Source of the DNA: an uncultured Bacilli bacterium
GTDB taxonomy: Bacteria; Bacillota_I; Bacilli_A; RF39; UBA660
DNA: 40,441 nt
Direction of reading: 5' to 3'
Assembly: GCA_944372455.1 (NCBI GenBank)
Contig: CALVZF010000009.1
Location: 1-40,441 of the forward strand
The first letter of the stretch is position 1, and every line of letters begins with the position of its first letter. Below, piece after piece: positions 16,640 through 39,119 of the stretch. The position numbers and the translations under genes are program-made. A model generated the notes under the pieces. The model was given only the letters and a program-made list of their open reading frames with translations. It was not told where the DNA came from and did not search any database.

Positions 16640-16674
16640 TTAAGAAGATGGAAATTTATTTTCTGTCTTTTTTT
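16640..16674 (+). terminator. Terminator after the lipoprotein gene
   Basis: aaga-t-ggaaa pairs with ttttc-tg-tctt around a short loop, followed by TTTTTTT. It separates the lipoprotein gene from the tRNA-like gene, which then belongs to the late operon. Confidence 0.55.
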
Positions 16675-16680
16675 ATATAT

Positions 16681-16754
16681 CGCAGGAGTAGTGTAATAGT
16701 AGCATACAAGTCTCTTTAGCTTGTGGAGTGGTGCAAATCCAACTTCTGCAACCA
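16681..16754 (+). tRNA. Initiator-like tRNA with anticodon CUU (reads AAG)
   Basis: 74-nt tRNA-like sequence, cgcagga ... ttctgcaacca. The acceptor has six pairs plus position C1 facing A72, a mismatch that marks bacterial initiator tRNAs; the end is A73 plus encoded CCA. The anticodon arm is a 5-bp stem (caagt 16707-16711 with gcttg 16719-16723) and the loop ctCTTta, anticodon 16714-16716, compared with ctCATaa in tRNA-fMet. A T-loop tgcaaat and the end gcaacca also resemble tRNA-fMet. Deviations: 3-nt linker before a GUGU/GCAU D-stem, small variable loop, only three good T-stem pairs, and no GGG/CCC in the anticodon stem. A degenerate elongator tRNA-Lys or pseudo-tRNA is the alternative. 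It directly precedes the small terminase gene, which starts with AAG. Confidence 0.7.
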
Positions 16755-16777
16755 AAGACAATAAGGAGGTGGTATCA

Positions 16778-17128
16778 AAGAGAAGAAAGTTTAAAAGCGC
16801 AAAAGAATTTGAAAATAAATTTTTAAACTATCTTAATAACTGCAAATCCAGTGAAAAGCTACCTAATATAGCAGGTTTTTGTGTTTTTGAAGATATGAAT
16901 AGGGACACGTTCTATGCACAAGAAGACTTGTATTCCGACACGTTTAAAAAAATCAATGATATATTGGAAGATGAAGCATTAAATTGCAAGTGTTTAACAG
17001 ATGCAAGAGTTATCTTTTATATGAAAAATAAATGCGGTTATAAAGATAAGCAAGAACTAGATACCACCAATTCAAATAGAATAGAAATCATAAACGATTT
17101 GCCAAGTGATGTAGATGAAAATAAGTAG
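16778..17128 (+). CDS. terS: Terminase small subunit, AAG start
   Basis: 116-aa protein directly before the large terminase and overlapping it by 14 bases. Basic start (RRKFKSAKEFENKF), then a helical HTH-like region (ENKFLNYLNNC...DTFYAQEDLYSDTFKKINDILEDEAL) and a helical C-terminus, as in TerS, which recognises phage DNA for packaging. AAGGAGG (16763-16769) lies exactly 8 bases before AAG 16778-16780, the natural start position. The only nearby canonical start in frame, GTG 16769, overlaps the SD. The next ATG would remove about 40 residues. Assignment to TerS rests on context. Confidence 0.75.
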   Translation, partial: KRRKFKSAKEFENKFLNYLNNCKSSEKLPNIAGFCVFEDMNRDTFYAQEDLYSDTFKKINDILEDEALNCKCLTDARVIFYMKNKCGYKDKQELDTTNSNRIEIINDLPSDVDENK

Positions 17129-18476
17129 TCTAGTTGCTCCTTCTTTTTGGAATACTTTCAATTCAAAAAAACCAAGACAAATAGACAAAGGTGGAAGAGG
17201 TTCTACAAAAACAAGCAAAAATTCATTAAAAGTGAATTTCCATTGTTTAGAAGAAGAAAGATGTAGTGCTATTGTCATTAGAGAATATCAAAATACATTA
17301 AGAGATAGCGTATATAAAGAAATTAAAAGAGCATTAAAAAGATTAGGACTTGTAGAGAATATTGATTATTCATGTAGTCTACAACCTTTAAGAGTTAAAT
17401 TAAGTAACGGTAATAATATTTACTTTGCTGGTGCTGATGATTATGAAAAACTTAAAGGTATGATAGACGAAAATACACCTATTAAAATTGTTTGGTTTGA
17501 AGAGTTAACAGAGTTCAAGAATGAAGAACAAATAGAGCAGATTATTGCCACATTTTCAAGAGGAAATGACGACTGGTTTATTTCTCTTTATTCATTTAAC
17601 CCACCAAAAAATAAATATCATTGGGTTAACCAGTGGGTAGAAAAAATGAAAAATAGAGAAGATGTACTTGTTACTAATTCCGATTATAGAACAGTACCAG
17701 AAGAATGGCTCGGTAAGATGTTTATTGACGAAGCTAAAAGAATGGAAAAGTTTGATAATAAACGTTATCGTTGGATTTATCTAGGCGAAGTAATCGGAAT
17801 GGAAGGACTTATTTATAACCCTCAAATGTTTGAGTATGTAGATAAGGATTACATAGAACAGAACAACTTAAGAATTCTCTATCTAGATTTTCCTGTTGAT
17901 GGTGGACATCAAACGTCGGCTACTACTTGCGGGTGTTATGGACTAGCAAGTGATGGTTATTGGTATTTGTTAGATACTTACTATTATTCTCCAAATGAGA
18001 AGCCTAAAAAGAAAGCACCTAGCGAGTTATCAAGAGATATCTTTAACTTTGAAATAGCTATGATAAAGAAATGGAAATGTGGAGAAGATAAAGAAACCAT
18101 AGATTCTGCAGAGGGAGCTTTGAGAAATCAATTGTATACCGACTATGGAAAAAGATTTCATCCGGTCAATAAAGGTAAATCAAAAGAAGAATTAATTGAT
18201 TATTCACAGGCTTTTCTAGCAAAAGGAAAGTTTAGGATATTAGATAATAATAATAACAAGATTTTCAAGAAAGAAAATGAAAATTATATGTGGAAAGAGG
18301 GAACGGTTGAAAAAGGCAAACCAGAGCCTGATGAAACAGAAAAAGAGTTTATCGGTGAAGAACCTTATTACAATAGTTGGTCTAATGATTATTCATATTA
18401 TTATGCAGATCATACACAAGATGATTTTCAGTATTGGGTTAAAGATAATTTAAGTAAATTAGGAATAAAGGAGTAA
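17115..18476 (+). CDS. terL: Terminase large subunit
   Basis: 453-aa packaging motor and nuclease. Walker A GGRGSTKTS at residues 26-34, Walker B-like IKIVWFEELTEF near 115-125, and nuclease-type acidic residues in LYLDFPVDGG (near 255) and later DSAEGALRN. The N-terminus ISSLVAPSFW matches this terminase family, so ATG 17115 is the true start. It overlaps terS. Together with the portal it forms the DNA-packaging machine. Confidence 0.93.
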   Translation: MKISSLVAPSFWNTFNSKKPRQIDKGGRGSTKTSKNSLKVNFHCLEEERCSAIVIREYQNTLRDSVYKEIKRALKRLGLVENIDYSCSLQPLRVKLSNGNNIYFAGADDYEKLKGMIDENTPIKIVWFEELTEFKNEEQIEQIIATFSRGNDDWFISLYSFNPPKNKYHWVNQWVEKMKNREDVLVTNSDYRTVPEEWLGKMFIDEAKRMEKFDNKRYRWIYLGEVIGMEGLIYNPQMFEYVDKDYIEQNNLRILYLDFPVDGGHQTSATTCGCYGLASDGYWYLLDTYYYSPNEKPKKKAPSELSRDIFNFEIAMIKKWKCGEDKETIDSAEGALRNQLYTDYGKRFHPVNKGKSKEELIDYSQAFLAKGKFRILDNNNNKIFKKENENYMWKEGTVEKGKPEPDETEKEFIGEEPYYNSWSNDYSYYYADHTQDDFQYWVKDNLSKLGIKE

Positions 18477-18482
18477 ATTAGA

Positions 18483-18569
18483 ATGAGCGATTCGGTAATA
18501 ATAACATTTATAATTTGTATAACAATAGCGGTATTAGGAATTGTAGGTAGTTTTGGAGACAAAAAGTAG
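18483..18569 (+). CDS. 28-aa membrane peptide between terL and portal
   Basis: MSDSVIITFIICITIAVLGI start, one membrane segment, short charged end. GGAG lies before ATG 18483. Its stop codon TAG sits inside the portal SD (tAGGTGA). Function unknown. Confidence 0.5.
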   Translation: MSDSVIITFIICITIAVLGIVGSFGDKK

Positions 18570-18578
18570 GTGATTTAA

Positions 18579-20045
18579 AAGGAATTATATCAAGATATAC
18601 AAAGCAAATTAAGTAAAAAAGGAATTAATCTTGTTGTTGGAAATATTTACGATATGATGGCTATATGGAAGAGTTGGTATCGTGGTAATGTTAATGATTT
18701 CCATTATTACAATAGGAAAATGGCAGATGGTACAACAAAAAAATGCGAAAGACTAACTATGAATATGCCAAAAAAGATATGTGAAGATATATCAAAATTA
18801 GAATGGTCTGAAAAGGTACAAATAAAACTTGATAAGAAGAAAAATACGGAAAGACTATTAGAAGTATTAGATAGCAAAGAAAACAATTTTATGACCAATT
18901 TTCCAGCATTTCTTGAGAGAGTTTTTGCACTAGGTACAGGAGTTACTGTTGAATATAAGAAAAATGATAAAACATTAATTGATTATATTGATGGTGATAT
19001 AGTAATTCCTTACATGTACACCAACAGTTATATTAATGGTTTAATCACAGTCAGTAGATTTACCAAAGGTACAGAAACTAATAAAAAATATTTTACACAT
19101 ATTACATATCACGAATTCAAAGATGGGAAATATACAAAATTAAATGAACTTTATAAATCAAGCACTGACAATACATTAGGTCGTGAAATTGATTTTAACA
19201 GTGAATTCCCAGATGTCATAGAATTTGAAAGTTATGAAACAGACACACCACATTTCCAAGTATGGAAACCTTTAATTGCTAATAATTTTGATACAGATAG
19301 TCCGATGGGATTATCTATTTTAGCAAATCACATAGATAAATTTAAAGCAATAGATACTAAATACGACAGTTTTAATCGTGAGTTTGTTACAGGTAAGAAA
19401 CGTGTATTAGTTGATAGAACAACAGTTAAAAAGAAAGCTGAATCAGATGCAGAAGGAAATATAAATTATGTAAGCTATTTTGATACTGATGATGAAGTTT
19501 ATGTAGCAATATCTGGTATGGAAAATCAACCCGTTAAAGAAATAGATTTTACATTAAGATATGAAGAACATATAAATTCTATAAATGCAGATTTAAATTA
19601 TTTAAGTGCTGGCGTAGGACTAGGTCAAAACTTTTATAATTTTGAGGGTCAAGGAGTTAAAACTGCGACAGAAGTAGTATCAGAAAATAGTGATACTTAC
19701 AGAACTAAGAAACATCACGAGATTATGGTTAATGACTGTTTATATGATTTAGTTAAAGCTATTTGTTATCTTGAAAATATACCTTATAAATCAATAAATA
19801 TTGTATTTGATGATTCAATTATTGAAGATGAGAATGCTTTAATAAAACGTGGTTTAGAATTATACCAAAATAAAGTTATTTCACTTGAAAAGTTTATGCA
19901 AAAATACTTACATTATGAAGATAGTGAAATTCAAGAAGAAATAGCTAGAATAGAAAGTGAAAATAAATTAGTTCAACCTGAAGGGTTGGACTTTTTCGGT
20001 ATGAGTGAAAATAAAGAGAAATCTGAAACTACACCTAATGAATAG
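18579..20045 (+). CDS. Portal protein (SPP1 gp6-like), AAG start
   Basis: 488-aa portal, the dodecameric channel at the capsid vertex. INLVVGNIYDMMAIWKSWY followed by RGNVNDFHYY matches the conserved start region of Firmicute SPP1-type portals; part of it lies upstream of the first ATG (18654), so the true start must be earlier. The frame opens at TAA (18576-18578), and the next codon is AAG 18579-18581, with AGGTG 6 bases before it. No ATG, GTG or TTG occurs between that TAA and 18654. The leader gtgatttaaAAGG is identical to that of the capsid gene. Confidence 0.9.
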   Translation, partial: KELYQDIQSKLSKKGINLVVGNIYDMMAIWKSWYRGNVNDFHYYNRKMADGTTKKCERLTMNMPKKICEDISKLEWSEKVQIKLDKKKNTERLLEVLDSKENNFMTNFPAFLERVFALGTGVTVEYKKNDKTLIDYIDGDIVIPYMYTNSYINGLITVSRFTKGTETNKKYFTHITYHEFKDGKYTKLNELYKSSTDNTLGREIDFNSEFPDVIEFESYETDTPHFQVWKPLIANNFDTDSPMGLSILANHIDKFKAIDTKYDSFNREFVTGKKRVLVDRTTVKKKAESDAEGNINYVSYFDTDDEVYVAISGMENQPVKEIDFTLRYEEHINSINADLNYLSAGVGLGQNFYNFEGQGVKTATEVVSENSDTYRTKKHHEIMVNDCLYDLVKAICYLENIPYKSINIVFDDSIIEDENALIKRGLELYQNKVISLEKFMQKYLHYEDSEIQEEIARIESENKLVQPEGLDFFGMSENKEKSETTPNE

Positions 20046-20057
20046 GGGTTGGTGTAA

Positions 20058-21251
20058 ATGTCTTTAGATGAATTAGAAGAAAATGTTGAAAGACTTTATA
20101 TTGACATGGAAAATGAATTGCTTTTGAATATTGCTAAAAAGCTGTCTGCTGGTAAGTCTATGGAGATAGATAAATGGGATGAAATAAATCAGCAACCTTT
20201 GGTAGGTAGTGGCGAAGTAAATGAATGGCAATTGCAAAGATTAAAAGAACTTAATGGATTAAATGAAGAAAACGCAAAGATAATTGCGAAGTATTCTGGC
20301 AAAACTGTTGAAGAGGTAAATAAAGTCTTTGACAGAGCTAGAGAAATAGGTATGACAAGAGATGAAACCCTTATTCAAGAGGGCATTAAATTGGGAATAC
20401 TTAATGCAATAGAGCCTGATACCGAAGAATTGATAGCTAAAAGCATTTTATCAAACGCAGTTGAAGAAATATTAACTACATTTAATACACAGAATAATAG
20501 CCTTTTAGTAAGTGCTGGAGAAGAATATAGAGATATAGTCAATAAAGTATCTTCTCAAGTGCTAGCAGGTACTAAAACCACTAATAAAGCTATGCAAGAA
20601 GCCGTTAGTCAACTTGCAGAAAAAGGTTTAACTGGTTTTACTGCTAGAAATGGAGCAAGATGGAATCCAGAAGGCTACACAAAAATGGTTATCCGTTCAA
20701 ATACACAGAATACTATAAATCGTATTCAAGATGAGAGAATACAAGCTTGTGGTGGAGACTTCATAGAAATTAGCTCACATTCTGGAGCAAGACCTTTATG
20801 TAGTCAAGATCAAGGCCAAGTATTTTCACTAAGTGGTTATTCTGGTTACATTGAAGATTTAGATGGCAGCAGAGTTAAAGTTAGACCGTGGAGTTCTTCA
20901 ACTTATGGAAAACCTGCAGGAATACTAGGCATTAACTGTCGTCATTCAAGGTATATGTTTGTTCCTGGTTTGTCAAAAAGACGAGAAATGGACTTCACTA
21001 AAGCAGAAAATGATGAGGCTTATATAGAAAGTCAAAGACAACGTCAGTATGAAAGGACTATCAGAAATAAAAAAAGGGAAATAGCAATGCTTAAACAAAC
21101 TGGTGCAGAACCAAATTACATTAAGGGGAAACAAAACAATTTGAGCGACACTAGAAAAGAATATCTAGATTTTTTAGATAAGACTGGTAGAACTAGAATA
21201 ACAGCTAATGAATGGATAGGAACAATAAAAAAAAATAGCACTGCTTTATAA
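20058..21251 (+). CDS. Minor capsid protein (Phage_min_cap2-like, MuF-type region)
   Basis: 397-aa head protein. The block RWNPEGYTKMVIRSNTQNTIN followed by HSGARPLCSQDQGQVFSL and GINCRHSRYMFVPGLS is typical of phage minor capsid protein 2 / MuF-like proteins that attach to the portal and enter the head. ATG 20058, with AGGGG and GGTG upstream, is a normal start. Gene order portal - minor capsid - scaffold - capsid is standard. Confidence 0.88.
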   Translation: MSLDELEENVERLYIDMENELLLNIAKKLSAGKSMEIDKWDEINQQPLVGSGEVNEWQLQRLKELNGLNEENAKIIAKYSGKTVEEVNKVFDRAREIGMTRDETLIQEGIKLGILNAIEPDTEELIAKSILSNAVEEILTTFNTQNNSLLVSAGEEYRDIVNKVSSQVLAGTKTTNKAMQEAVSQLAEKGLTGFTARNGARWNPEGYTKMVIRSNTQNTINRIQDERIQACGGDFIEISSHSGARPLCSQDQGQVFSLSGYSGYIEDLDGSRVKVRPWSSSTYGKPAGILGINCRHSRYMFVPGLSKRREMDFTKAENDEAYIESQRQRQYERTIRNKKREIAMLKQTGAEPNYIKGKQNNLSDTRKEYLDFLDKTGRTRITANEWIGTIKKNSTAL

Positions 21252-21377
21252 GTAGTGTACTAATGATATGAAAGTCTTGACAGGGATTCAAAAGAGGTTA
21301 TTTATAGTTGAAAAATAATTCTGTCTTAGGCTATAAATAAAGTCTTGGGTATATCATTAGTACAGTGCTTATAAGGC
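21243..21377 (+). ncRNA. Nested-hairpin RNA element between minor capsid and scaffold genes
   Basis: A 13-bp perfect stem (gtactaatgatat 21257-21269 with 21351-21363), an outer stem (21243-21252 with 21368-21377), and an inner 10-bp perfect stem (ttatttatag 21298-21307 with ctataaataa 21331-21340). gacag and ctgtc in the inner region may form another contact, and aaagtcttg occurs twice. No ORF covers it. It lies in a 237-base gap of the head operon; candidate RNA-stability, processing or regulatory element. Family not recognised. Confidence 0.6.
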
Positions 21378-21488
21378 ATTTTAGGGCGTAGAAATACGTT
21401 CTTTTATTATGTCTTTTACTTAGTTAGACAATAAAGAGATTAAGGCGTGGGAATTACTTTGTTACCCATAGAAAAAACGGAGGTATTT

Positions 21489-22019
21489 ATGGAAGAAAAA
21501 GAAAATTCAGTTACTCAAACTGAAACAGTAGAAACTGAAGAAAAAACTGAGGTGTCAGGAGAACAACCTGTTGAAAAAAATGAAAAAACCTATACCCAAG
21601 ATGAAGTTAATGCTTTGGATAAAAAATTGAAAGAAAAATATGAAAAGAAATATGCAGGCATTGACTTAAAAAAGTATAAGGAATGGGAAGAAAGTCAAAA
21701 GACTGATTCTCAAAAACAACAAGAAATATTACAAGAAAATGAAACTTTAAAAAAACAACTTGTGATTGCAGAAAACAAGTCAGTAGTTGCAAATGCTGGT
21801 GTTGATTCTAAATTTCAAAAGTTTGTTTTATCAGAAGTCTCAGAAATGGAAGGGGAATTTGAAGATAATTTAAAAGATTATTTAAAAGAAAACCCTCAAT
21901 TTTTAATTAATAAAGTTGAAACACCTAAAACAAATGGTGTAGCAACTAAAAAGATTAGCGATGATGCCGATGATGGTGTTACGGCTATTTTAAAAGCGAA
22001 ACACCCAGATTTATTTTAG
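21489..22019 (+). CDS. Capsid scaffold protein
   Basis: 176-aa acidic, coiled-coil protein (EEKENSVTQTETVETEEKTE start; YKEWEESQKTDSQKQQEILQE in the middle; DDGVTAILKAKHPDLF at the end), the usual profile of a Firmicute phage scaffold directly before the major capsid gene. It directs procapsid assembly and then leaves. ATG 21489 has GGAGG 5 bases upstream, so it uses a normal start, unlike its neighbour. An earlier in-frame start exists but has no SD. Confidence 0.85.
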   Translation: MEEKENSVTQTETVETEEKTEVSGEQPVEKNEKTYTQDEVNALDKKLKEKYEKKYAGIDLKKYKEWEESQKTDSQKQQEILQENETLKKQLVIAENKSVVANAGVDSKFQKFVLSEVSEMEGEFEDNLKDYLKENPQFLINKVETPKTNGVATKKISDDADDGVTAILKAKHPDLF

Positions 22020-22035
22020 AAGGAGAGTGATTTAA

Positions 22036-23166
22036 AAGGCAAACGCAATTCAAACAAATGGTACTCACGAGAGACAAGAACGTTATGAAAATAACATTGT
22101 TAAATTAATGAGACCATTATTAAAAATCAGAAACACTTTTTCAAGTGACTACGAAGGAGAACCAGTTTCAGGTGCTGTTAAAGTTCCAGTTAGAAATATG
22201 GATCCAGAAATTAAACCTTATGATGTTAAAAATGGTGTTGATTTAAGTCAATCAGCAACTAATTATTTAACTATTTTAGTAGATGAACATGATGCTATTA
22301 ACGAGTTGATTGATGGTTATGAAGCTAGTGCTGTGCCTGATAATCTAGTAGCACAAAGATTAGAAGCAGGTGCATATGCTAGAGCAAAAAAACTTGAAGA
22401 CCATGCTGTTAATGCATTAAAAAATAACTCAATTGTTTCAACTCAAGCAGATTGTACAGAAGCTAATGTTTATTCAAATATTGTTAAAGATATTGCTATT
22501 CAAGCAAAAAGAGGAATTGATAAAAATAGAATGTATGTAGCCGTTTCTTATGAAACTGAAACACTGTTACTAACCGATGAGAAATTTTCTAACAGTGCAT
22601 CACAAATTGGTGCAGAATTAGCTAGAAATGGTATTATTGGTAGAATTAACGGTGTTAATGTAATTACTGAAGATTTGGGAGAAAATACTTCTGGACAAGC
22701 TATTGAATATATAATCTATGGTGTTGACTGGACTCAAAAAGTTGATGCTTGGAAAGTAGGTCTAGCTGTAAATGATTTGAAAGATGGCAAACATGTTGGT
22801 GCATCTGCTTTACAAGATAGATATGTATATACAGATACTGTTACTAACAAAAATGCTGTTCTTGTTAAATCTAAAGTTGGTATTTCCGCTGTAAACATTA
22901 CTCCAGTAACTAATTTATCTGGAACATTAGCTGACGAAACTAAAGTTGCTGATTTAGCAAGTGTTGGTGGTAGTGGAACTGTAACTTATACATTACCTAC
23001 TGGTGTAGCTGACAATGCTAAGTTTGAGATTAGTTCAAATACTGTAATTACAGCAGATGCAACTGTTGCACCAGGTACTTATACTATTGTAGTTAAGGGT
23101 ACTGATACAGCTAGCAATGAAGCTTCAGCAACTGCTGTTATTGAAGTAGCAGAAGCTAGTGAATAA
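22036..23166 (+). CDS. Major capsid protein with Ig-like C-terminus, AAG start
   Basis: 376-aa capsid protein with HK97-like fold features expected for this position. From AAG 22036-22038 it reads (M)ANAIQTNGTHERQERYENN, a typical start of this capsid family; the first ATG (22108) would remove 24 residues. AAGGAGAG (22020-22027) lies upstream and TAA (22033-22035) directly precedes the AAG in frame. Residues about 275-376 (ISAVNITPVTNLSGTLADE onward) form an added beta-sandwich, Ig/cadherin-like, likely displayed on the capsid surface. Leader gtgatttaaAAGG as in the portal gene. Confidence 0.9.
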   Translation, partial: KANAIQTNGTHERQERYENNIVKLMRPLLKIRNTFSSDYEGEPVSGAVKVPVRNMDPEIKPYDVKNGVDLSQSATNYLTILVDEHDAINELIDGYEASAVPDNLVAQRLEAGAYARAKKLEDHAVNALKNNSIVSTQADCTEANVYSNIVKDIAIQAKRGIDKNRMYVAVSYETETLLLTDEKFSNSASQIGAELARNGIIGRINGVNVITEDLGENTSGQAIEYIIYGVDWTQKVDAWKVGLAVNDLKDGKHVGASALQDRYVYTDTVTNKNAVLVKSKVGISAVNITPVTNLSGTLADETKVADLASVGGSGTVTYTLPTGVADNAKFEISSNTVITADATVAPGTYTIVVKGTDTASNEASATAVIEVAEASE

Positions 23167-23187
23167 TTTTAGAAAGGAGCAGTTTGT

Positions 23188-23556
23188 ATGGTAACCGAAC
23201 AAGATTATGAAGAATATTTTGGAGTAGATACTGCTCCTTCTAATTTTTCAAGATTAGAATTTTTAAGTTTAAATACTATTAAATCAAATATAACAAAATC
23301 TGTTCCTAAAGAAACTTGTCTTTGTTATGAAGACTTTAAAAAGGCTCTATTAGAACAGATTAATTTTTATGATATTAATAGTGATTTAATTACAAATGAA
23401 AGTACGAGTGGCTATACATTAGGTAGTTACTCTGAAAGTGCTTCAAACAAGAAAGAAACATCTAAAAGTATAGATAGGTTGAGCCCTGCGGCTTACGAAA
23501 TATTGTTAAGTTGTGGGCTTTTAGAAAGCTCGTTAGGAGGTTGTTGTTTATGGTAA
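23188..23556 (+). CDS. Head-tail connector protein (gp6-like)
   Basis: 122-aa protein directly after the capsid gene; EQDYEEYFGVDTAPSNFSRLEF and the helical centre resemble head-completion adaptors that sit under the portal. AAAGGAG precedes ATG 23188. Assigned mainly by order and size. Confidence 0.65.
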   Translation: MVTEQDYEEYFGVDTAPSNFSRLEFLSLNTIKSNITKSVPKETCLCYEDFKKALLEQINFYDINSDLITNESTSGYTLGSYSESASNKKETSKSIDRLSPAAYEILLSCGLLESSLGGCCLW

Positions 23557-23699
23557 AGTACAAAATGGGAGCTATTGTCAAAGAGGTTCCAAAAGGTGCT
23601 GAAAAGTGGTATATCAAAGCTGGCTGGAAGAAGTTAGAAACTCCAAAAGGAGAAAATAAAAATGATAAAACCAATTCCAAAGAGACTGCTACCACATAA
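23550..23699 (+). CDS. 49-aa small head protein, unknown
   Basis: ATG 23550 with TAGGAGG 8 bases upstream, overlapping the previous gene. Basic protein (MVKYKMGAIVKEVPKGAEKW start). It overlaps the next gene by 38 bases. Function unknown; small adaptors are common here. Confidence 0.6.
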   Translation: MVKYKMGAIVKEVPKGAEKWYIKAGWKKLETPKGENKNDKTNSKETATT

Positions 23700-24000
23700 T
23701 TGTATTTATAAAGAATATCTCGGTAACTCTGGCGAAAGTGATAAATGGGATGAAACAGGTAGTCAATTAAAATTTGTTAAAATTGAAGAAAAAACACAAT
23801 TGAAAGTTACTTCAAACGGCCGTGAAGTAATAGGAAATGCACGTTTATTCTATGATTTAACTAATTCTAGTGGTCTATATAGTAAGCCTATTCAAAACAG
23901 TAAAATAATCTATAACAACCATGAATATAGAGTGATTGATACAGATGTTTTATGTGGAGAACAGGACAAACCACATCACTACGAGGTACTCTTGAAGTAA
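23662..24000 (+). CDS. Minor capsid / head-closure protein (Minor_capsid_1-like)
   Basis: 112-aa protein starting MIKPIPKRLLPHNCIYKEYLG, which fits the Minor_capsid_1 family of A118-like phages (head closure). AAAGGAG precedes ATG 23662. The stop overlaps the next ATG. Confidence 0.75.
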   Translation: MIKPIPKRLLPHNCIYKEYLGNSGESDKWDETGSQLKFVKIEEKTQLKVTSNGREVIGNARLFYDLTNSSGLYSKPIQNSKIIYNNHEYRVIDTDVLCGEQDKPHHYEVLLK

Positions 24001-24356
24001 TGGCAAAACAGTTTAAAGACTTTAAAAGCGCTTGTGATTGGTTAAAAAATGTATGTGATGCAACAGCTGACAAAACGAGACCAGCTGTTGCGGAACAACT
24101 CTATAAAGATAGTAACGAGTTTACATATCGAGAAAGTGGAGAAATGTATAAATCTGGAGCTACTAATAGCGATTTTCAAAAAGGATATGTTATAGAACGC
24201 AGTCCATATGTTAGACGTCGTTATTATGAAGGTGGTAAACCTGGTGCAGGGAATAGAAAAGCAGAGCCTAGATGGTTTGATAAAACCTGGAATAAATATA
24301 AAGAAGATTATCAAGGTATGTGCGTAACTATTTTTAATAAGGAAAAGGAGAAATAA
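24000..24356 (+). CDS. Minor capsid protein (Minor_capsid_2-like, head-tail joining)
   Basis: 118-aa protein (MAKQFKDFKSACDWLKNVCD start; SPYVRRRYYEGGK and PRWFDKTWNKYKEDY later) of the head-tail joining type found between head closure and tail terminator genes. ATG overlaps the preceding TAA. Confidence 0.75.
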   Translation: MAKQFKDFKSACDWLKNVCDATADKTRPAVAEQLYKDSNEFTYRESGEMYKSGATNSDFQKGYVIERSPYVRRRYYEGGKPGAGNRKAEPRWFDKTWNKYKEDYQGMCVTIFNKEKEK

Positions 24357-24357
24357 C

Positions 24358-24750
24358 ATGAATATAGAATCTTTAATTACTTTATTAAGAAATGAAATAG
24401 AAAAAACTGGGTATAAGTGTAAATCTCCTGACTTGCCACCAGATGGAGAAAATATTGTATCCATTTCACTTGGTCAAGGAACAAACCAAAGGTCGATTAC
24501 TAAGGATATCCTATATAGCGATATTCCATTTTATTTGCTGATTAGAGGAACTTCTAACGATACTAACACTAGAACTATTGCAGATACTATTTTTAATCAA
24601 TTAGACCATAAAGAAAATATAGAAAATAATAATTTAAGAATTATTTTAATAAGTTGTAGTACTCCAAATTATGCTTTTAGAGATGAAAATCAAAGGATTC
24701 ACTATAACATTAATGCGACTATTAAGGTCGAATGGAAGGAGGAATTTTAA
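24358..24750 (+). CDS. Minor capsid / tail terminator protein (Minor_capsid_3-like)
   Basis: 130-aa protein; order directly before the tail tube gene and the alpha/beta pattern (ISLGQGTNQRSITKDILYSD, then LIRGTSNDTNTRTIADTIFNQL) fit a tail terminator. AAGGAG precedes ATG 24358. Its stop TAA overlaps the first base of the tail tube AAG. Confidence 0.75.
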   Translation: MNIESLITLLRNEIEKTGYKCKSPDLPPDGENIVSISLGQGTNQRSITKDILYSDIPFYLLIRGTSNDTNTRTIADTIFNQLDHKENIENNNLRIILISCSTPNYAFRDENQRIHYNINATIKVEWKEEF

Positions 24751-25205
24751 AGGCACAATATGAAAGTTCTGTAAAAAAATTTTTAGTACAATTTGATTTA
24801 AGTGAAGATGAAACACCAGACTGGGAGGATTTAATTTCACTTACAGTCGGTTATGATCAAGGAGAAACTCTTGACACATGGCAAGATTTATATAATTTCT
24901 TGTCAAACAATGTTAAGACTGGATTAGATCCTACTTGGTCTGTATCAGTAAAATTAGATAAGACAAATCCAGTATGTCAATTTATTTTAGATAAAGAATT
25001 CGCTGTTGGTGCAGAGGCTACTGCAAAAACAAAGATTGTAAACTTACTTAAAGGTACAAGTGGAAAGCAAATAGAATTTACTTCTACTTTAAGTTCAATT
25101 TCTTATGAAGCAAACGCTGAAGAAGTATTACAAATTGATTTTGACTTAAAAGTTTATGATAATTCAACATTTGAGGAAACAGATTATACAGCACCAACTG
25201 GCTAA
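24750..25205 (+). CDS. Major tail (tube) protein, AAG start
   Basis: 151-aa tail tube protein; reads (M)AQYESSVKKFLVQFDLSEDE and is beta-rich with TSTLSSISYEANAEEVLQIDFDLKVY near the end. AAGGAGG (24736-24742) is 7 bases before AAG 24750-24752, the ideal distance. An in-frame ATG at 24732 lies upstream of the SD itself, with only a weak AAGG before it, and would add MEGGIL. A terminator follows, as often found behind highly expressed tube genes. Confidence 0.85.
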   Translation, partial: KAQYESSVKKFLVQFDLSEDETPDWEDLISLTVGYDQGETLDTWQDLYNFLSNNVKTGLDPTWSVSVKLDKTNPVCQFILDKEFAVGAEATAKTKIVNLLKGTSGKQIEFTSTLSSISYEANAEEVLQIDFDLKVYDNSTFEETDYTAPTG

Positions 25206-25211
25206 AACAAC

Positions 25212-25242
25212 AGGGTAGGCATTCTAGTCTACCCTTTATTTT
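25212..25242 (+). terminator. Terminator after the tail tube gene
   Basis: agggtag (25212-25218) and ctaccct (25229-25235), followed by a T-rich run. It probably reduces expression of the following chaperone and tape-measure genes relative to the tube. Confidence 0.8.
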
Positions 25243-25260
25243 TATATTAGGAGGTAAAAA

Positions 25261-25692
25261 ATGTTAACATTAACAAGAAAAAAATATGAATTTGAAGAGC
25301 CAATACAAATTAAAGATGAAAACGGAGAATTAATAGTAGATTATGTTATGAAAATAACCCCAGAAGAAAAATTAGAAATTAGAGATATTATATTTGATGA
25401 ACAAGATGTTAAAAATGGTAGATTAATGAGTAAGCTACAAAAAGAAAAAAATATTGAAGCACTTGAAGAATTGGAAACAAAGGTATTAGCTGCTGCTCAA
25501 GAAAGACAAGAAAAATTTGAAAAAATTATTTTCAAAGATGAAAGAGATAGCATTATAGAAAAAGCAGGGAAATCGGCTTATATTGATTTGGTTGATATGA
25601 TATTTGATTTTTTCGTAAAAACCTTTGTGGACAAGAAAACATCACAAATAAATACTTTGAGTACACACCTTCGCAAGATTTCAAACAGTTAA
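25261..25692 (+). CDS. Tail assembly chaperone, first part (gpG-like)
   Basis: 143-aa protein between tail tube and tape measure, mostly helical (ITPEEKLEIRDIIFDEQDVKN). AGGAGG precedes ATG 25261. The position and a slippery site near its end mark it as the gpG-type chaperone that wraps the tape measure during tail assembly. Confidence 0.8.
   Translation: MLTLTRKKYEFEEPIQIKDENGELIVDYVMKITPEEKLEIRDIIFDEQDVKNGRLMSKLQKEKNIEALEELETKVLAAAQERQEKFEKIIFKDERDSIIEKAGKSAYIDLVDMIFDFFVKTFVDKKTSQINTLSTHLRKISNS
25608..25614 (+). promoter_or_regulatory. -1 ribosomal frameshift site TTTTTTC
   Basis: In the chaperone frame the codons are GAT TTT TTC, giving the canonical slippery heptamer T_TTT_TTC. The -1 frame opens exactly here (its preceding stop is TGA 25605-25607) and continues unbroken to 26249. 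Frameshifting between the two chaperone frames is conserved in long-tailed phages. Confidence 0.8.
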
Positions 25693-26249
25693 ATTTATTA
25701 AAAATTGATGATAAAGAATACTATTTAAACATTACATTTAAAAATGTAATGAAAATTTTTAAATTAATGAAAGATAATACTCCAGAAAATATTAAGAAAA
25801 GCATTGAACTGTTAGGTATAAGTGGTTTATCTTTTGAAGACCAAGCTATAGTTTTAGATGAAATTACTAAATACGTATTTGACATGAATCAACGACATTC
25901 AAATGGAGAAAAAACTTTTGATTTTGAATTAGATTATAAATATTATTTTGTTGATTTTCTAAATTTTGGTAATGGAATTAATCTTAATAAAGATGAAATT
26001 TCATGGTGGGAGTTTGATGCTATTTTAGAGGGAATTTTTTTAAATAAAGATTCTATTTTATCTACTGTTTTAGATTATCGATTATACGAAAAACCATCTA
26101 AAAATCCAAAAGTACAGGAAGAAAAAGAACATAAGTTTAGAATGAAGATGAAGAGAAAATATTCTCTACCTATCAAAACAAATGTTGATGTAGGATTAGA
26201 AAAATTATGGAATTATGTTGAAAAAAAGGTAGGTGAAAATAAAGAATAG
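25608..26249 (+). CDS. Tail assembly chaperone, frameshifted part (gpGT-like / Gp15)
   Basis: The -1 frame continues from the slippery site through FRKNLCGQENITNKYFEYTP into the region starting at ATG 25749. That ATG has no good SD, so synthesis mainly as a fusion (25261-25614 then -1) is likely. The C-terminal part (PENIKKSIELLGISGLSFEDQ, then KYSLPIKTNVDVGLEKLWNY) resembles the Bacteriophage Gp15 family. It ends inside the tape measure start region. Confidence 0.8.
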   Translation, partial: FFRKNLCGQENITNKYFEYTPSQDFKQLNLLKIDDKEYYLNITFKNVMKIFKLMKDNTPENIKKSIELLGISGLSFEDQAIVLDEITKYVFDMNQRHSNGEKTFDFELDYKYYFVDFLNFGNGINLNKDEISWWEFDAILEGIFLNKDSILSTVLDYRLYEKPSKNPKVQEEKEHKFRMKMKRKYSLPIKTNVDVGLEKLWNYVEKKVGENKE

Positions 26250-28530
26250 TGATGCAGTTGTAAAGTTCTTAATTGATTTAAGTAATAAAAACGCAATAAA
26301 AGGTGTAACAGAACTAGAAAAAAAAAGTTCTGCACTAGCAAATAAATTTAATCAAGCAGGAAAAGCTTTGACAATTGGATTAACAACACCAATTGTTGCT
26401 TTTGGAACATATGCAGTAAAAACTGCTACTGATTTTGATAGAGCAAGCAATCAAATTCAAGCAGGTTTAGGGTTGTCTACAGATAAAGCTAAAGAATTTG
26501 ATAATGTATTACGTGAAATGTATACAGCTAACTATGGTGAAAGTTATGAAGATTTAGCAAATAAAATTTCATATGTTGCTCAAGCAACAGGAGAAGTAGA
26601 CCCTAGTAAAATTAAAAATCTTACCGAAAATGCTATAGCGTTAGAAGAAACATTTGGGTCTGATTTTAATGAAACAATTAGAGGCGTAACAAACTTAATG
26701 ACACATTTTGGCATATCATCTGAAGAAGCTTTTGACTTATTTGCTAAAGGTAGTCAATCAGGATTAGATTATACAGCTGAGTTAGGAGATAATATAGCTG
26801 AATATGGCGGAAATTTCAAACAAGCTGGATATAGTGCAGCGGAATATTTCCAATTATTATCTAATGGAACAAAAAATGGTGCATATAATCTAGATAAGGT
26901 AAACGATTCTATTAATGAAATAAAAAACAGAATAGGCGACGGCACAATTAAAGAAAATTTATCAATGTTTAGTTCCGAAACAAAGACTATTTTTAAAAAT
27001 TGGGAAAATGGTAAAGGAACTATGAAAGATGTCATTAATTCTATCGTTTCTGATATATCAAATTGTGAAAGTGAACAAAAACAATTAACTATGGCAGCTA
27101 CTGCTTTCGGAACAATGGGAGAAGACGCTAACTTAAAAGTTGTAACATCATTAACTACAGTTGGTAATGAATTTAATAACGTTAAGGGGTCAATGGAAAC
27201 TCTTAAAGAAGTAAAATATGATGATTTAGGTAGTATGTTAGAGTCTTTAGGAAGGCAATTTAGCGATATAGCTCTTGATGTAGGAAATGAATTAATGCCA
27301 ACTATTCAATCATTTATGGGTAAAATTCAAGAACTTGTTAATTGGTTTAAAAGCCTAGATCCAGAAACAAAGACAATGATAGGAAACATAGCTAAGATAG
27401 CAGTTGTTGTCGGTCCTACTTTAATAATCTTTAGTAAGCTGATTAATACAATAAAGGACATAGATTCAGCATTTAAATTTTTATCTTCAAAAGGTAGTAA
27501 AGCTATTGAAATGATTCAATCATTTGGAGGACATGTAAAAAATGGACTGAATACTATAGCAAAGTTTACAAAAAGTTTAGGCAAAATGGCATTAGAATTT
27601 GGAAAAAGTGCTTTACAAGCTGGGATAGCTACTGTTAAATTTATTGCTCAAAAAACTGCAATGTTGGCAAGTGTAGTAGCAACTAATGCGATGGCGGCTG
27701 CTCAGGCAGCATTAAACTTCATAATGTCCTTGAATCCTATTACTTTAATAATAATTGCTATAGTAGCTTTAATAGCTATTTTAGTTGTTCTTTGGAATAA
27801 ATGTGAATGGTTCCGTGATGGAGTAATGACTGTTATAAATGCAATATGGGGAGCTATACAAGTAGCAATAGATTTTATTGTTAATTTATTCACTACTTTG
27901 TTTAATATAATTTGGGGATTAATACAATCATATGTAAATTTTTGGATAATGGTCTGGACTACTGTCTTTAATGTAGTAAGTACAGTATTAACGAACATAT
28001 GGAATGTAATACAATCAGTATTTAACTTTATATGGGGTATTATTTCAGGAGTTATAAATAGTATAATCTCAGCTTTTCAAACAGTAGCTAACGTTGTAAA
28101 AAGTGTTTTTAATTCAGTTAAAAATGCTATTTCATCTATATTTAGTGGAATAGTCAATATAATAAAAGCTCCAATTAATGGACTAATTGGGTTAGTCAAC
28201 GGTGTTATTAAAGGACTTAATAAAATCAAACTTCCAGATTGGGTACCAGGAATTGGTGGAAAAGGAATAAATATTCCTTTAATACCTAAGTTAGATACAG
28301 GAACTAACTATATAGCTCGTGAAGGACTAGCATATCTACATGAAGGTGAAGCAGTTGTACCAAAAAAATACAATCCTGCTATTGGTGGGTACGGTAATAA
28401 TTATCAGCCAAATATTACAATTATAGCAGAAATGCAGACAGATAAATTCGGACAAGTATTTGTTAGCAACATTAAAACATTATCAAATGGTTCAAAAGGT
28501 GACTATAATTATGGTGGAGGAATTAAATAA
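26242..28530 (+). CDS. Tape measure protein, AAG start
   Basis: 762-aa tape measure protein, which sets tail length. N-terminal TMP domain with helices (LIDLSNKNAIKGVTELEKK, then TDFDRASNQIQAGLGLSTDKA), a hydrophobic membrane-active stretch at about 480-540 (MSLNPITLIIIAIVALIAIL) and further amphipathic repeats. AGGTG (26231-26235) lies 6 bases before AAG 26242-26244. GTG 26233 in the same frame is inside the SD. Reading from AAG gives (M)NSDAVVKFLIDLSNKNAIKG, a normal start for this family. Confidence 0.9.
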   Translation, partial: KNSDAVVKFLIDLSNKNAIKGVTELEKKSSALANKFNQAGKALTIGLTTPIVAFGTYAVKTATDFDRASNQIQAGLGLSTDKAKEFDNVLREMYTANYGESYEDLANKISYVAQATGEVDPSKIKNLTENAIALEETFGSDFNETIRGVTNLMTHFGISSEEAFDLFAKGSQSGLDYTAELGDNIAEYGGNFKQAGYSAAEYFQLLSNGTKNGAYNLDKVNDSINEIKNRIGDGTIKENLSMFSSETKTIFKNWENGKGTMKDVINSIVSDISNCESEQKQLTMAATAFGTMGEDANLKVVTSLTTVGNEFNNVKGSMETLKEVKYDDLGSMLESLGRQFSDIALDVGNELMPTIQSFMGKIQELVNWFKSLDPETKTMIGNIAKIAVVVGPTLIIFSKLINTIKDIDSAFKFLSSKGSKAIEMIQSFGGHVKNGLNTIAKFTKSLGKMALEFGKSALQAGIATVKFIAQKTAMLASVVATNAMAAAQAALNFIMSLNPITLIIIAIVALIAILVVLWNKCEWFRDGVMTVINAIWGAIQVAIDFIVNLFTTLFNIIWGLIQSYVNFWIMVWTTVFNVVSTVLTNIWNVIQSVFNFIWGIISGVINSIISAFQTVANVVKSVFNSVKNAISSIFSGIVNIIKAPINGLIGLVNGVIKGLNKIKLPDWVPGIGGKGINIPLIPKLDTGTNYIAREGLAYLHEGEAVVPKKYNPAIGGYGNNYQPNITIIAEMQTDKFGQVFVSNIKTLSNGSKGDYNYGGGIK

Positions 28531-35082: not shown

Positions 35083-35294
35083 TGATGAAAATTATCAAAG
35101 AAAATAATATTGATGTATTAATGCCAGAAATAGGTTATCTATTACATGATAAATCAGAAGTATTAGAAGAAGGACAAGCTCCTTATTTAACTGACAAAAT
35201 ATATCTTGCTAAATCAATTACAACAATAGAACAATGCAAAGAAATATGGGAAGAGGTGAAAATAGATGAAAATCAATTGGAAAGTAAGAATTAA
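35082..35294 (+). CDS. Small late protein, unknown
   Basis: 70-aa acidic protein ([20 protein letters not shown] start). ATG 35082 overlaps the stop of the previous gene; GGAG lies nine bases upstream. Position between fibre and holin resembles small XkdX-type genes, but no motif confirms this. Confidence 0.6.
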   Translation: MMKIIKENNIDVLMPEIGYLLHDKSEVLEEGQAPYLTDKIYLAKSITTIEQCKEIWEEVKIDENQLESKN

Positions 35295-35535
35295 GAATCC
35301 ATATTTTTGGATACAAATAGGGATTGCAATATTAATGCCTATTTTAGCTTATTTAGGGCTTGCTGTAGAAGATTTAACTACTTGGGGTAAAGTAGGACAA
35401 GTTCTATTAGAAGCAGTCTCTAATCCTTACGTATTAGGCTTAGTAGTGGTATCTGTATTTAACGCAATACAAGACCCTACTACAAAAGGATTATCAGATA
35501 GCGAAAAAGCTATGACTTACACAGAACCAAATTAA
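35266..35535 (+). CDS. Holin (phi LC3 family)
   Basis: 89-aa protein beginning MKINWKVRIKNPYFWIQIGI, the typical start of phi LC3-type holins, with membrane segments at about 13-33 and 50-70 and a charged tail. AGAGGTG precedes ATG 35266; it overlaps the gene before. It permeabilises the membrane so the following endolysin can reach the wall. Confidence 0.9.
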   Translation: MKINWKVRIKNPYFWIQIGIAILMPILAYLGLAVEDLTTWGKVGQVLLEAVSNPYVLGLVVVSVFNAIQDPTTKGLSDSEKAMTYTEPN

Positions 35536-35554
35536 TTAGAAAGAAGTGATTTAA

Positions 35555-36253
35555 ATGCAAATGAATATAACTCAAAAACAATTAAATTTAAAACATCTAG
35601 GATATTACAAGAAAAAAATAGATGGAATATGGGGTAGTGGAAGTATTGATGCTACTAGAAGATTCCAAAGAGATTATGGACTAGCACAAGATGGTATTTT
35701 CGGTGCTAAAACAGAAGCTAAGTCAATTGAAGTATGGAAAGATATACAAGCTAAATTAAATAACTATGGTTATGGTCTTGCTGTTGATGGTTTAGTAGGA
35801 ACTAATACTATTAATGCTATAAACGATTTTCAACGTAAAAATGGTCTTGTAGTGGATGCTATGGTAGGTAAAAATACTATGGCAAAGTTAAACACATCAG
35901 TATCTTACAAATGTAAATATTTTGAAGATAAAGAATTCACTTGTAAATGTGGATGTGGTACTAATAAACAAAAAAATGGTATAAAAAAAATAGCAGATGA
36001 TATTAGAGGTCATTTTGGAAAACCAGCATATATCAATTCAGGAACAAGATGTTCTAAACATAACAAAAATGTTGGTGGTGTTTCTAATTCACAACACTTA
36101 TACGGAAATGCTATTGATATAGAAATACCTGGTGTAATTGGTAAAACTTTATTGGCATATTGTAATTCAATAGTTGCTAGTGGTAGAGCAAGATACACAT
36201 ATTTAATTAGTGGTAGTAATGCAGTTCATATAGACACAGGTAATTTAGAATAA
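35555..36253 (+). CDS. Endolysin: two PG-binding repeats plus M15 peptidase
   Basis: 232-aa protein. Two peptidoglycan-binding domains (about 5-55: YYKKKIDGIWGSGSIDATRRFQ; about 56-108: YGLAVDGLVGTNTINAINDFQ), then a Peptidase_M15-type domain: FEDKEFTCKCGC, SGTRCSKHNKNVGGVSNSQH, LYGNAIDI and HIDTGN, giving His-Asp-His zinc ligands. It cuts cell-wall peptide bonds at lysis. The leader gtgatttaaATG equals that of portal and capsid but with ATG. Confidence 0.9.
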   Translation: MQMNITQKQLNLKHLGYYKKKIDGIWGSGSIDATRRFQRDYGLAQDGIFGAKTEAKSIEVWKDIQAKLNNYGYGLAVDGLVGTNTINAINDFQRKNGLVVDAMVGKNTMAKLNTSVSYKCKYFEDKEFTCKCGCGTNKQKNGIKKIADDIRGHFGKPAYINSGTRCSKHNKNVGGVSNSQHLYGNAIDIEIPGVIGKTLLAYCNSIVASGRARYTYLISGSNAVHIDTGNLE

Positions 36254-37535: not shown

Positions 37536-39119
37536 ATGGTATTTAGAAAACCTTACGCTTTATTAATAAAATATTTTAAAATAATTCATATTGTAATAAC
37601 TATTTTTATGATTTACTTAACATATAAAACTGTTAACTTATATAAGTTTTTTGCTTCTTATGTTAAAACTGGATGGTCAAGTTTAAATGCAGAAGAAATC
37701 AATTCATATATTGGACCATTAATTTTTATTTCAATTTTTATAATTGTAATTTTAGCGCTTGTTATATTCTTTTTAATGCGATTTAAAAATAAGCCTAGAG
37801 TATATTATTTATTAACTCCTATAATATATTTAATCTTATTAATTATTTTTATTTATACCTTGTCAGTATTAAAAACAGCTGAATTTGATGTAGTGAGTCC
37901 TATAACTTCAAGAATTACAAGAGATATCTTAATGATAGCTATTGGAATCCAATTTTTATTTATTGTGTTTTCTCTTTTCAGGGCGATCGGATTTGATATT
38001 AAAAAATTTAACTTTAAGCAAGATATAGCAGATTTACAAATAGGAGAACTTGATAATGAAGAAGTAGAACTAAACTTAGAAGTAGATAAATATAAAATAT
38101 CCAGAATGGCAAAAAGAAGAGTTAGAAATGTATCTTATATTTTTAAAGAACATAAATTTATCTTTAGTTTACTACTTTTTATAGTGTTTGGTAGTTTAAT
38201 AACATATTTTGCGTTAAATAAATTTGTTTTATCTCCAACATATAAAGAAGGGAGACAAGTTGATTTAGGAAATTATGACATTATTATTAATAAATCTTAT
38301 GTTACAAATAAAGATTATAAAAGTAAAATTATAAATAAAAATAATAAATACATTTTAGTATCATTTTCTATAATAAATAAAATACAAGATATGGTATTTA
38401 ATATGAATAATGTTTCGTTAAATCTCAACGATAAAATTTACTATCCAGTAACAAATATTTATAGTGATTTTATTGATATTGGAAACGGTTATATAGATCA
38501 AAAATTAAATACAAAAAAAGAAAATAACTATTTTTTAGTTTTTAAAATTCCTAATGAAGAAAAAATAAATAATCCTATTTTACAATATACTATTAGTAAA
38601 AAATATGATAAAAATAATAATCTACAGAATAAATATAAAAAATTTAAACTAAATCCAATTAACGATGATAATATTACTATAATTGAAAAAAAATTACGTG
38701 AAAATTCTAATATCTCTGGAAATGAATTATTAATTAATGAATATAGTATTAATAATAAATTTGAATATTCATATAAATTATGTACAACCAATAGTAATTG
38801 TGAAAATAAAACTTATCAAGTAAATACAGAAAATAGCCTAGATAATTCTTTAATTCTAATGTTAAACATTTCAGCGACTATGGGAGAATATAATAATAGT
38901 TCAATTAAAAATTTAACTGATTTTATAGAAAAATTTGGATCAATAACATATACTTTAAATAATCAAACCTATAATCAGTCTAATTTAAATCTTTTAAATA
39001 CTAATACTTTTAATGGAAATGAAATATTTATAAATATTCCTAGTAGAATTAATGATGCTTCAAATATATATTTAGATATTAACATTAGAAATATAAAATA
39101 TAGATATAAATTAAATTAA
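37536..39119 (+). CDS. Multi-pass membrane protein with large extracellular domain, host gene
   Basis: 527-aa protein with about four N-terminal membrane segments (roughly 12-30, 50-80, 90-112, 130-150), a cytoplasmic linker with a basic patch, another segment near 207-228, and then about 300 extracellular residues rich in Asn and Lys (DUF4352-like beta pattern: VDLGNYDIIINKSYV). AGGAGGGTG precedes ATG 37536 and TATAAT lies about 35 bases upstream. Codon use is even more AT-rich than the phage. Function unknown; probably a surface protein of the host. Confidence 0.75.
   Translation: MVFRKPYALLIKYFKIIHIVITIFMIYLTYKTVNLYKFFASYVKTGWSSLNAEEINSYIGPLIFISIFIIVILALVIFFLMRFKNKPRVYYLLTPIIYLILLIIFIYTLSVLKTAEFDVVSPITSRITRDILMIAIGIQFLFIVFSLFRAIGFDIKKFNFKQDIADLQIGELDNEEVELNLEVDKYKISRMAKRRVRNVSYIFKEHKFIFSLLLFIVFGSLITYFALNKFVLSPTYKEGRQVDLGNYDIIINKSYVTNKDYKSKIINKNNKYILVSFSIINKIQDMVFNMNNVSLNLNDKIYYPVTNIYSDFIDIGNGYIDQKLNTKKENNYFLVFKIPNEEKINNPILQYTISKKYDKNNNLQNKYKKFKLNPINDDNITIIEKKLRENSNISGNELLINEYSINNKFEYSYKLCTTNSNCENKTYQVNTENSLDNSLILMLNISATMGEYNNSSIKNLTDFIEKFGSITYTLNNQTYNQSNLNLLNTNTFNGNEIFINIPSRINDASNIYLDINIRNIKYRYKLN

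Follow-up and report, generated by a model that had tools for sequence, protein, structure and literature searches.

The window analysed here is a 40,441-nt stretch of contig CALVZF010000009.1 (assembly GCA_944372455.1, positions 1 to 40,441, forward strand) from an uncultured Bacilli bacterium of the lineage RF39, UBA660. It holds a temperate phage whose integrase, ERF, SSB and sigma-70-region-4-like genes lie upstream. This phage very probably encodes a modified initiator tRNA whose CUU anticodon pairs with AAG, and uses AAG as the start codon of its small terminase (TerS), portal, major capsid, tail tube and tape measure genes. Phages of this kind appear to form a family of gut phages with an altered starter tRNA placed directly before the virion genes. 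Comparison with other phages makes it likely that such orthogonal initiation codes have evolved repeatedly, each combining an initiator-type tRNA(CUU) or tRNA(CCU) with AAG or AGG starts on virion genes, whose proteins would be made only with the phage tRNA. A first-pass annotation of the window had proposed a private start code for the virion; the proposal is supported, having survived every sequence test, and the observation behind it proved firmer and broader than had been claimed. A second code, AGG with tRNA(CCU), was found in other phages. The tRNA and the five genes are located as follows.

16681..16754, + strand: tRNA(CUU) gene, initiator-derived, with a C1xA72 mismatch, A73 and encoded CCA (Rfam tRNA, 39.1 bits)
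16778..17128, + strand: TerS gene, AAG start, Shine-Dalgarno (SD) sequence AAGGAGGTG at 8-nt spacing (PHROG 606)
18579..20045, + strand: portal gene, AAG start with the preceding TAA adjoining (PHROG 533)
22036..23166, + strand: major capsid gene, AAG start with the preceding TAA adjoining (PHROG 267)
24750..25205, + strand: tail tube gene, AAG start (PHROG 820)
26242..28530, + strand: tape measure gene, AAG start (PHROG 1272)

The first-pass annotation had placed AAG at SD distance at five virion gene starts, and the codon was found at all five positions (16778, 18579, 22036, 24750 and 26242). All five genes are open under table 11, with no in-frame stops that would have to be read through as amino acids. 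Portal and capsid are the cleanest cases of the window. In the portal gene, an in-frame TAA (18576-18578) is followed at once by AAG 18579, and the first ATG, GTG or TTG is residue 26 (ATG 18654); in the capsid gene, TAA 22033-22035 is followed by AAG 22036, and the first such codon is residue 25 (ATG 22108). Both agree with the earlier description of a TAA directly before AAG and of 24-25 codons lacking ATG, GTG and TTG. The CUU tRNA reported before the first AAG gene was present and matches AAG; the gap between its end (16754) and the TerS AAG (16778) is 23 nt where 24 bases had been claimed, and its derivation from an initiator, as opposed to an ordinary Lys tRNA, had been missed.

Conservation of the codon was examined across the AAG clade. 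All homologous starts checked were AAG (56/56), with zero ATG and zero AAA: TerS 19/19, portal 16/16, capsid 8/8, tail tube 7/7 and tape measure 6/6, the TerS count being less independent than the other four because TerS starts were chosen as the best-SD AAG behind the tRNA, while the other families were placed by homology. Inside portal genes AAA outnumbers AAG (546:154), and its absence at the starts argues that AAG is not kept merely as lysine. Portal codons 2-24 are under purifying selection (pN/pS 0.27). In sister phages without the tRNA, portal and capsid have ATG precisely where the AAG phages have AAG, and the N-termini are alike (MELYNNIQ.. in ATG phages vs KELYNNIQ.. in AAG phages; MANAIG.. 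vs KANAIG..). The first-pass annotation had read the segments before the downstream ATG codons as family N-termini, and their conservation and purifying selection accord with that reading. It had also suggested aligning the start regions with ATG homologues and looking for AAG in phages that carry the tRNA; the alignment put ATG at the very residue of AAG, and the AAG pattern was found in tRNA-carrying phages and was absent from sister phages without the tRNA. A sequencing error was considered and rejected, as independent viral contigs and metagenome-assembled genomes (MAGs) carry these AAG codons too.

In the portal protein tree all AAG phages formed one clade (support 100/99). In the capsid tree, the major capsid proteins of G292 and G293 were nested among ATG capsids (relatives L027 and L021) yet start with AAG, and a single AAG clade was rejected (AU p 5e-46). 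This placement suggests that the capsid gene was acquired from the ATG lineage, and the imported gene then appears to have been converted independently from ATG to AAG. A sixth AAG-started gene was noticed behind the tape measure gene in G185 (contig C7, oriented position 39036), with a strong SD and the N-terminus KAKITYVNK.

A codon-blind test was also carried out, tallying all codons at SD spacing close to the 5′ end of each open frame. Late regions of AAG phages gave ATG 51 (expected 7.6) and AAG 33 (expected 6.4, p 2e-14), none of the other codons listed being similarly enriched; near-identical phages are included, and the p-values of this test overstate independence. AAG was not among the frequent codons at SD spacing in the early regions of the same phages, and it was weakly raised in ATG phages (16 vs 8.4 expected, p 0.01). 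For the window alone the test was weak (AAG 4 vs 1.6, p 0.08), and the strength of the AAG case comes from conservation.

The second code emerged when viral contigs were scanned for tRNAs that share the acceptor features but have another CNU anticodon. In phage G305 (locus L120), a tRNA(CCU) is followed by a small terminase gene starting with AGG, and further AGG starts were found at portal (TAA-AGG), capsid, tail tube, tape measure and a phrog_1194 gene. L241, a relative of G305 (86% identity), carries a tRNA(CCU) and AGG starts at TerS, portal, capsid and tail tube; in L242, a 58% relative, no tRNA was detected and the portal start is GTG. The IMG numbers of G305 and L241 hint that their hosts may be isolates. 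G306, G308, G309, G079 and G249 likewise combine a tRNA(CCU) that has a 1-72 mismatch with AGG at SD distance. AGG was present at the capsid, endolysin and holin genes of G306 (and, by eye, at its portal), at the minor head gene of G079, and at the capsid and tape measure genes of G249, the last two phages having been found in the host family. At SD distance, AGG was counted 9 times in G308 (0.6 expected; ATG only 2) and 15 times in G309 (1.9 expected), and a 143-codon gene of G309 (7066) is devoid of any canonical start codon. Residue 2 after AGG starts was Ala in 12/34 and Ser in 5/34, compared with 6% and 5% after internal AGG, a bias that is start-like.

Codon and anticodon switch together. 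At SD sites, tRNA(CUU) phages had AAG 24 (expected 7.5) and AGG 0; tRNA(CCU) phages had AGG 30 (expected 3.9) and AAG 5 (expected 7.4); and phages with neither tRNA had AAG 8 (expected 5.4) and AGG 0 (Fisher p 5e-12 for AAG/AGG by tRNA type). No other evidence speaks as strongly as this matched switch for a tRNA that reads the start codon. L075 (near 934-1000; CUU, AAG with an in-frame ATG close by) and L245 (near 1578-1610; CCU, AGG) seem to have homologous genes immediately after the tRNA, and are possibly a natural swap pair.

The phage tRNAs with CUU or CCU (private tRNAs hereafter) were compared with the bacterial initiator, tRNA-fMet. The window tRNA has the loop CUCUUUA, G30-C40, U31.G39, a shortened T stem and the T-loop UGCAAAU, and is single-copy in its genome; this short-T-stem variant was missed by ARAGORN and recognised as a tRNA by Rfam. 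A pattern search found tRNA(CUU) in 2/291 host-family genomes (G000 and G185), in seven viral contigs and in about a dozen MAG contigs, giving 17 distinct variants; the MAGs that hold the related phages are labelled mostly uncultured Bacilli or Tenericutes. In AAG loci reaching this region, the tRNA lies directly upstream of the AAG-started TerS gene, except in L075, where another gene comes first. Private tRNAs share with the initiator the 1-72 mismatch, A73 with encoded CCA, and G30-C40. The mismatch is C1xA72 in all private tRNAs compared, the CCU ones having been selected by a 1-72 mismatch search, and A1xA72 in L241, which was found by portal similarity and has its own mismatch. Canonical-length tRNA(CUU) variants also share its overall sequence: most are 77-78% identical to the host initiator, L067 reaching 71%, while the host Lys(CUU) tRNA shares 54-65% with them and no host Lys tRNA more than 65%. 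The short form of the window is equally close, at 62%, to the host initiator and to host Lys(CUU). Its subclass is more derived, and its initiator ancestry is deduced from the acceptor end and from its orthologous place in the canonical-length series. Private tRNAs differ from the initiator in being phage-encoded, in serving a subset of genes, in having CUU or CCU in place of CAU, and in the three-G-C anticodon stem: 30-40 is always G-C, 29-41 is G-C or A-U, and 31-39 is U.G (as in tRNA(CUU)) or C-G instead of G-C. The D-stem pair 11-24, judged by eye, is A11-U24 in canonical-length CUU variants and G309, and U11-A24 in the window type, G305 and G308.

Other anticodons were sought with the same acceptor type. 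When any anticodon was allowed in a scan for this acceptor type followed by GGTG, all believable tRNAs had CAT, CUU or CCU, and C1xA72 tRNAs with a CAV anticodon in viral contigs yielded no believable one. A scan of viral contigs for DAT anticodons gave one, in L198 (IMGVR 3300009155_000146, phage G311): a C1xA72 tRNA at about 196-270 with the loop CUAAUAA and anticodon AAU. G311 showed no ATT excess at SD sites, where its SD signal is weak in general. An initiator-like tRNA with anticodon CAA, which would read UUG, was seen in L235 (MT835577.1, 2871-2947); its T arm is imperfect and the contig is maybe bacterial. Among INPHARED phages no CUU tRNA was met in the five human-faecal matches examined, which have CAT or CAA anticodons.

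Further features of the window are listed below.

16641..16680, + strand: terminator-like hairpin and T run, from a hairpin script, ending about 8 nt before the tRNA; weak and AT-rich
17115..18476, + strand: large terminase gene, ATG start, overlapping TerS (PHROG 3717)
35266..36253, + strand: holin and endolysin genes, both with ATG

Terminator-like hairpins lie just 5′ of the tRNA in many AAG phages, in AT-rich regions, and a consensus scanner with a GC rule found no terminator before the tRNA; a hairpin there would fit late, antiterminated transcription. No sigma-70 promoter above chance was found in front of the tRNA. The large terminase is a virion-module gene that retains a canonical start, and the lysis genes of the window phage are not in the AAG set. 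In G306 (L128/L129, reverse-complemented) the lysis genes, an amidase endolysin and a holin (26332, 27330), start with AGG where those of the window have ATG. At 376 aa the window capsid protein exceeds most relatives (279-282 aa) by about 95 residues, probably an extra C-terminal domain, and two overlapping frames upstream of the tape measure gene (25261-25692 and 25608-26249) resemble a tail-chaperone frameshift pair. A PBECR4 nuclease (barnase/EndoU/colicin E5/D/RelE-like family; 1777-2364, - strand) adjoins the integrase. It was considered as a partner that destroys host tRNA and rejected, as it was not found in other AAG phages.

Several observations weigh against initiation by the private tRNA. 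G307 carries a tRNA(CCU) and has no clear AGG starts. AAG starts occur without a visible tRNA in G068, L001 and L020, probably because these contigs are cut; that of G068 begins inside the capsid gene. Judged by eye, the window tRNA lacks R11:Y24, a determinant for methionyl-tRNA formyltransferase, and has U11-A24 instead; it has A29-U41 and U31.G39 in place of G-C pairs, and its T stem is partly gone. These departures may weaken formylation and entry into the P site. The G30-C40 and G29-C41 pairs, which 16S A1339 and G1338 grip, are important for start selection (PMC11497404). The p-values at SD sites treat related phages as independent. Lastly, the TerS, tail tube and tape measure genes of the window have in-frame GTG, ATG and GTG codons 9, 18 and 9 nt upstream of AAG, and it could be argued from these, or from the downstream ATG codons of portal and capsid (18654, 22108), that the proteins start elsewhere. 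We consider this extremely unlikely. The first-pass annotation had noted that the three upstream codons overlap or precede the SD, and so they do: GTG 16769 lies inside the SD of TerS, ATG 24732 stands before that of the tail tube gene and is closed off by a stop in several relatives, and GTG 26233 overlaps that of the tape measure gene and is unavailable in G291. In relatives the upstream canonical codons are often absent, out of frame or stop-closed, with AAG retained, none lies in frame within 30 codons upstream in 15/16 portal genes, and they are missing from 8/8 capsid genes. Purifying selection acts on the codons that precede the downstream portal ATG, the N-terminal residues agree with those of ATG phages, and gene 7066 of G309 has no canonical codon from which to start.

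Two other readings accept part of the evidence and give the tRNA a lesser role. AAG and AGG might be true starts read weakly by the host initiator (CAU), the phage tRNA being unrelated or an aid to elongation. Near-cognate initiation by fMet-tRNA is well known, and the host also encodes an elongator tRNA-Lys(CUU). Such weak reading would leave unexplained why codon and anticodon switch together (AAG/CUU, AGG/CCU), why every private tRNA has an initiator-type 1-72 mismatch and why sister phages without the tRNA use ATG; weak starts would also be odd for high-copy capsid genes, and AAG and AGG are the two near-cognates that fail in yeast (PMC2909995), although those data are from yeast and not from the host. 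We regard it as very improbable. Equally hard to credit as the relocated starts above is that the tRNA is an ordinary phage Lys or Arg elongator and AAG at gene starts a quirk of one clade. ARAGORN does call the canonical-length variants tRNA-Lys(ctt) and the CCU ones tRNA-Arg; elongators, however, have a paired 1-72, which is mismatched here, the canonical-length CUU tRNAs resemble the host initiator and not Lys tRNAs, and the matched codon is seen in other phage groups.

If the private tRNA does initiate on AAG, its action could be pictured as follows. The gene stands at the head of the late block, so the tRNA and the mRNAs that depend on it are probably made at the same time. AAG and the anticodon of the host initiator (CAU) mismatch at the middle base and should pair poorly, and the genes would be expressed only once the phage tRNA appears. 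The tRNA would itself have to be made, to carry Lys or Arg (or Met, by mischarging), to be formylated and to be accepted by IF2. The phage would gain a lock on late expression, freedom from the host initiator, or both; the gain may lie in locking leaky virion expression in the lysogen, or in escape from attack on the host initiator tRNA. Work cited in PMC13232202 reports that engineered initiators with AAG/CUU pairs initiate in vitro. Of the single-mismatch codons in a yeast reporter, only AAG and AGG gave no initiation with the normal initiator (PMC2909995). This would make the two good private signals, and they may be favoured as the near-cognate codons least readable by it. As to the amino acid, anticodon U35 and U36 with A73 favours Lys for CUU, E. 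coli MetRS mischarges tRNA-Arg(CCU) with Met (PMC9976931), and a phospho-mimic of human MetRS charges tRNA-Lys(CUU) (PMC4179492). Such mischarging makes Met a possible charge. Both anticodons retain C34 and U36 of CAU, and Met, Lys or Arg are all possible on the private tRNA.

To our knowledge, natural genetic-code changes affect stop or sense codons, and we know of no report from nature in which the start signal of a subset of genes is moved to a codon of its own, read by a dedicated initiator. No natural case of such a start code was found in the open-access literature searched, outside which lie subscription papers and most preprints. Unusual mycoplasma initiator tRNAs resemble the private tRNAs in a relaxed GC/GC/GC anticodon stem that keeps the middle G-C, and differ in retaining CAU and serving the whole cell. 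Suppressor tRNAs are the usual means of decoding in recoded-stop phages. Recoded-stop phages such as the crAss-like ones with genetic code 15 (PMC9523058) likewise use a phage-specific decoding unlike that of the host, whereas in AAG phages no elongation codon changes meaning and the start signal alone is altered. Engineered orthogonal initiation, with amber-initiating and AAG/CUU initiators (PMC8576571, PMC13232202), shares a changed-anticodon initiator and a matching non-AUG codon. The native initiator reads that codon poorly there; for AAG and AGG, the corresponding literature is from yeast (PMC2909995). The engineered systems are man-made, while the phage version would be natural and tied to virion genes. 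Start codon and anticodon are matched and distinct from AUG/CAU in the phages too, with AAG/CUU and AGG/CCU covarying.

If true, these start codes would constitute a translational lock on phage late genes, and would account for capsid, portal and tail genes whose start calls are missing or truncated. They would offer evolved orthogonal codon/tRNA pairs for synthetic biology, and would make it testable how much drift in anticodon, 31-39 pair and T stem a bacterial initiator tRNA tolerates before charging, formylation or acceptance fails.

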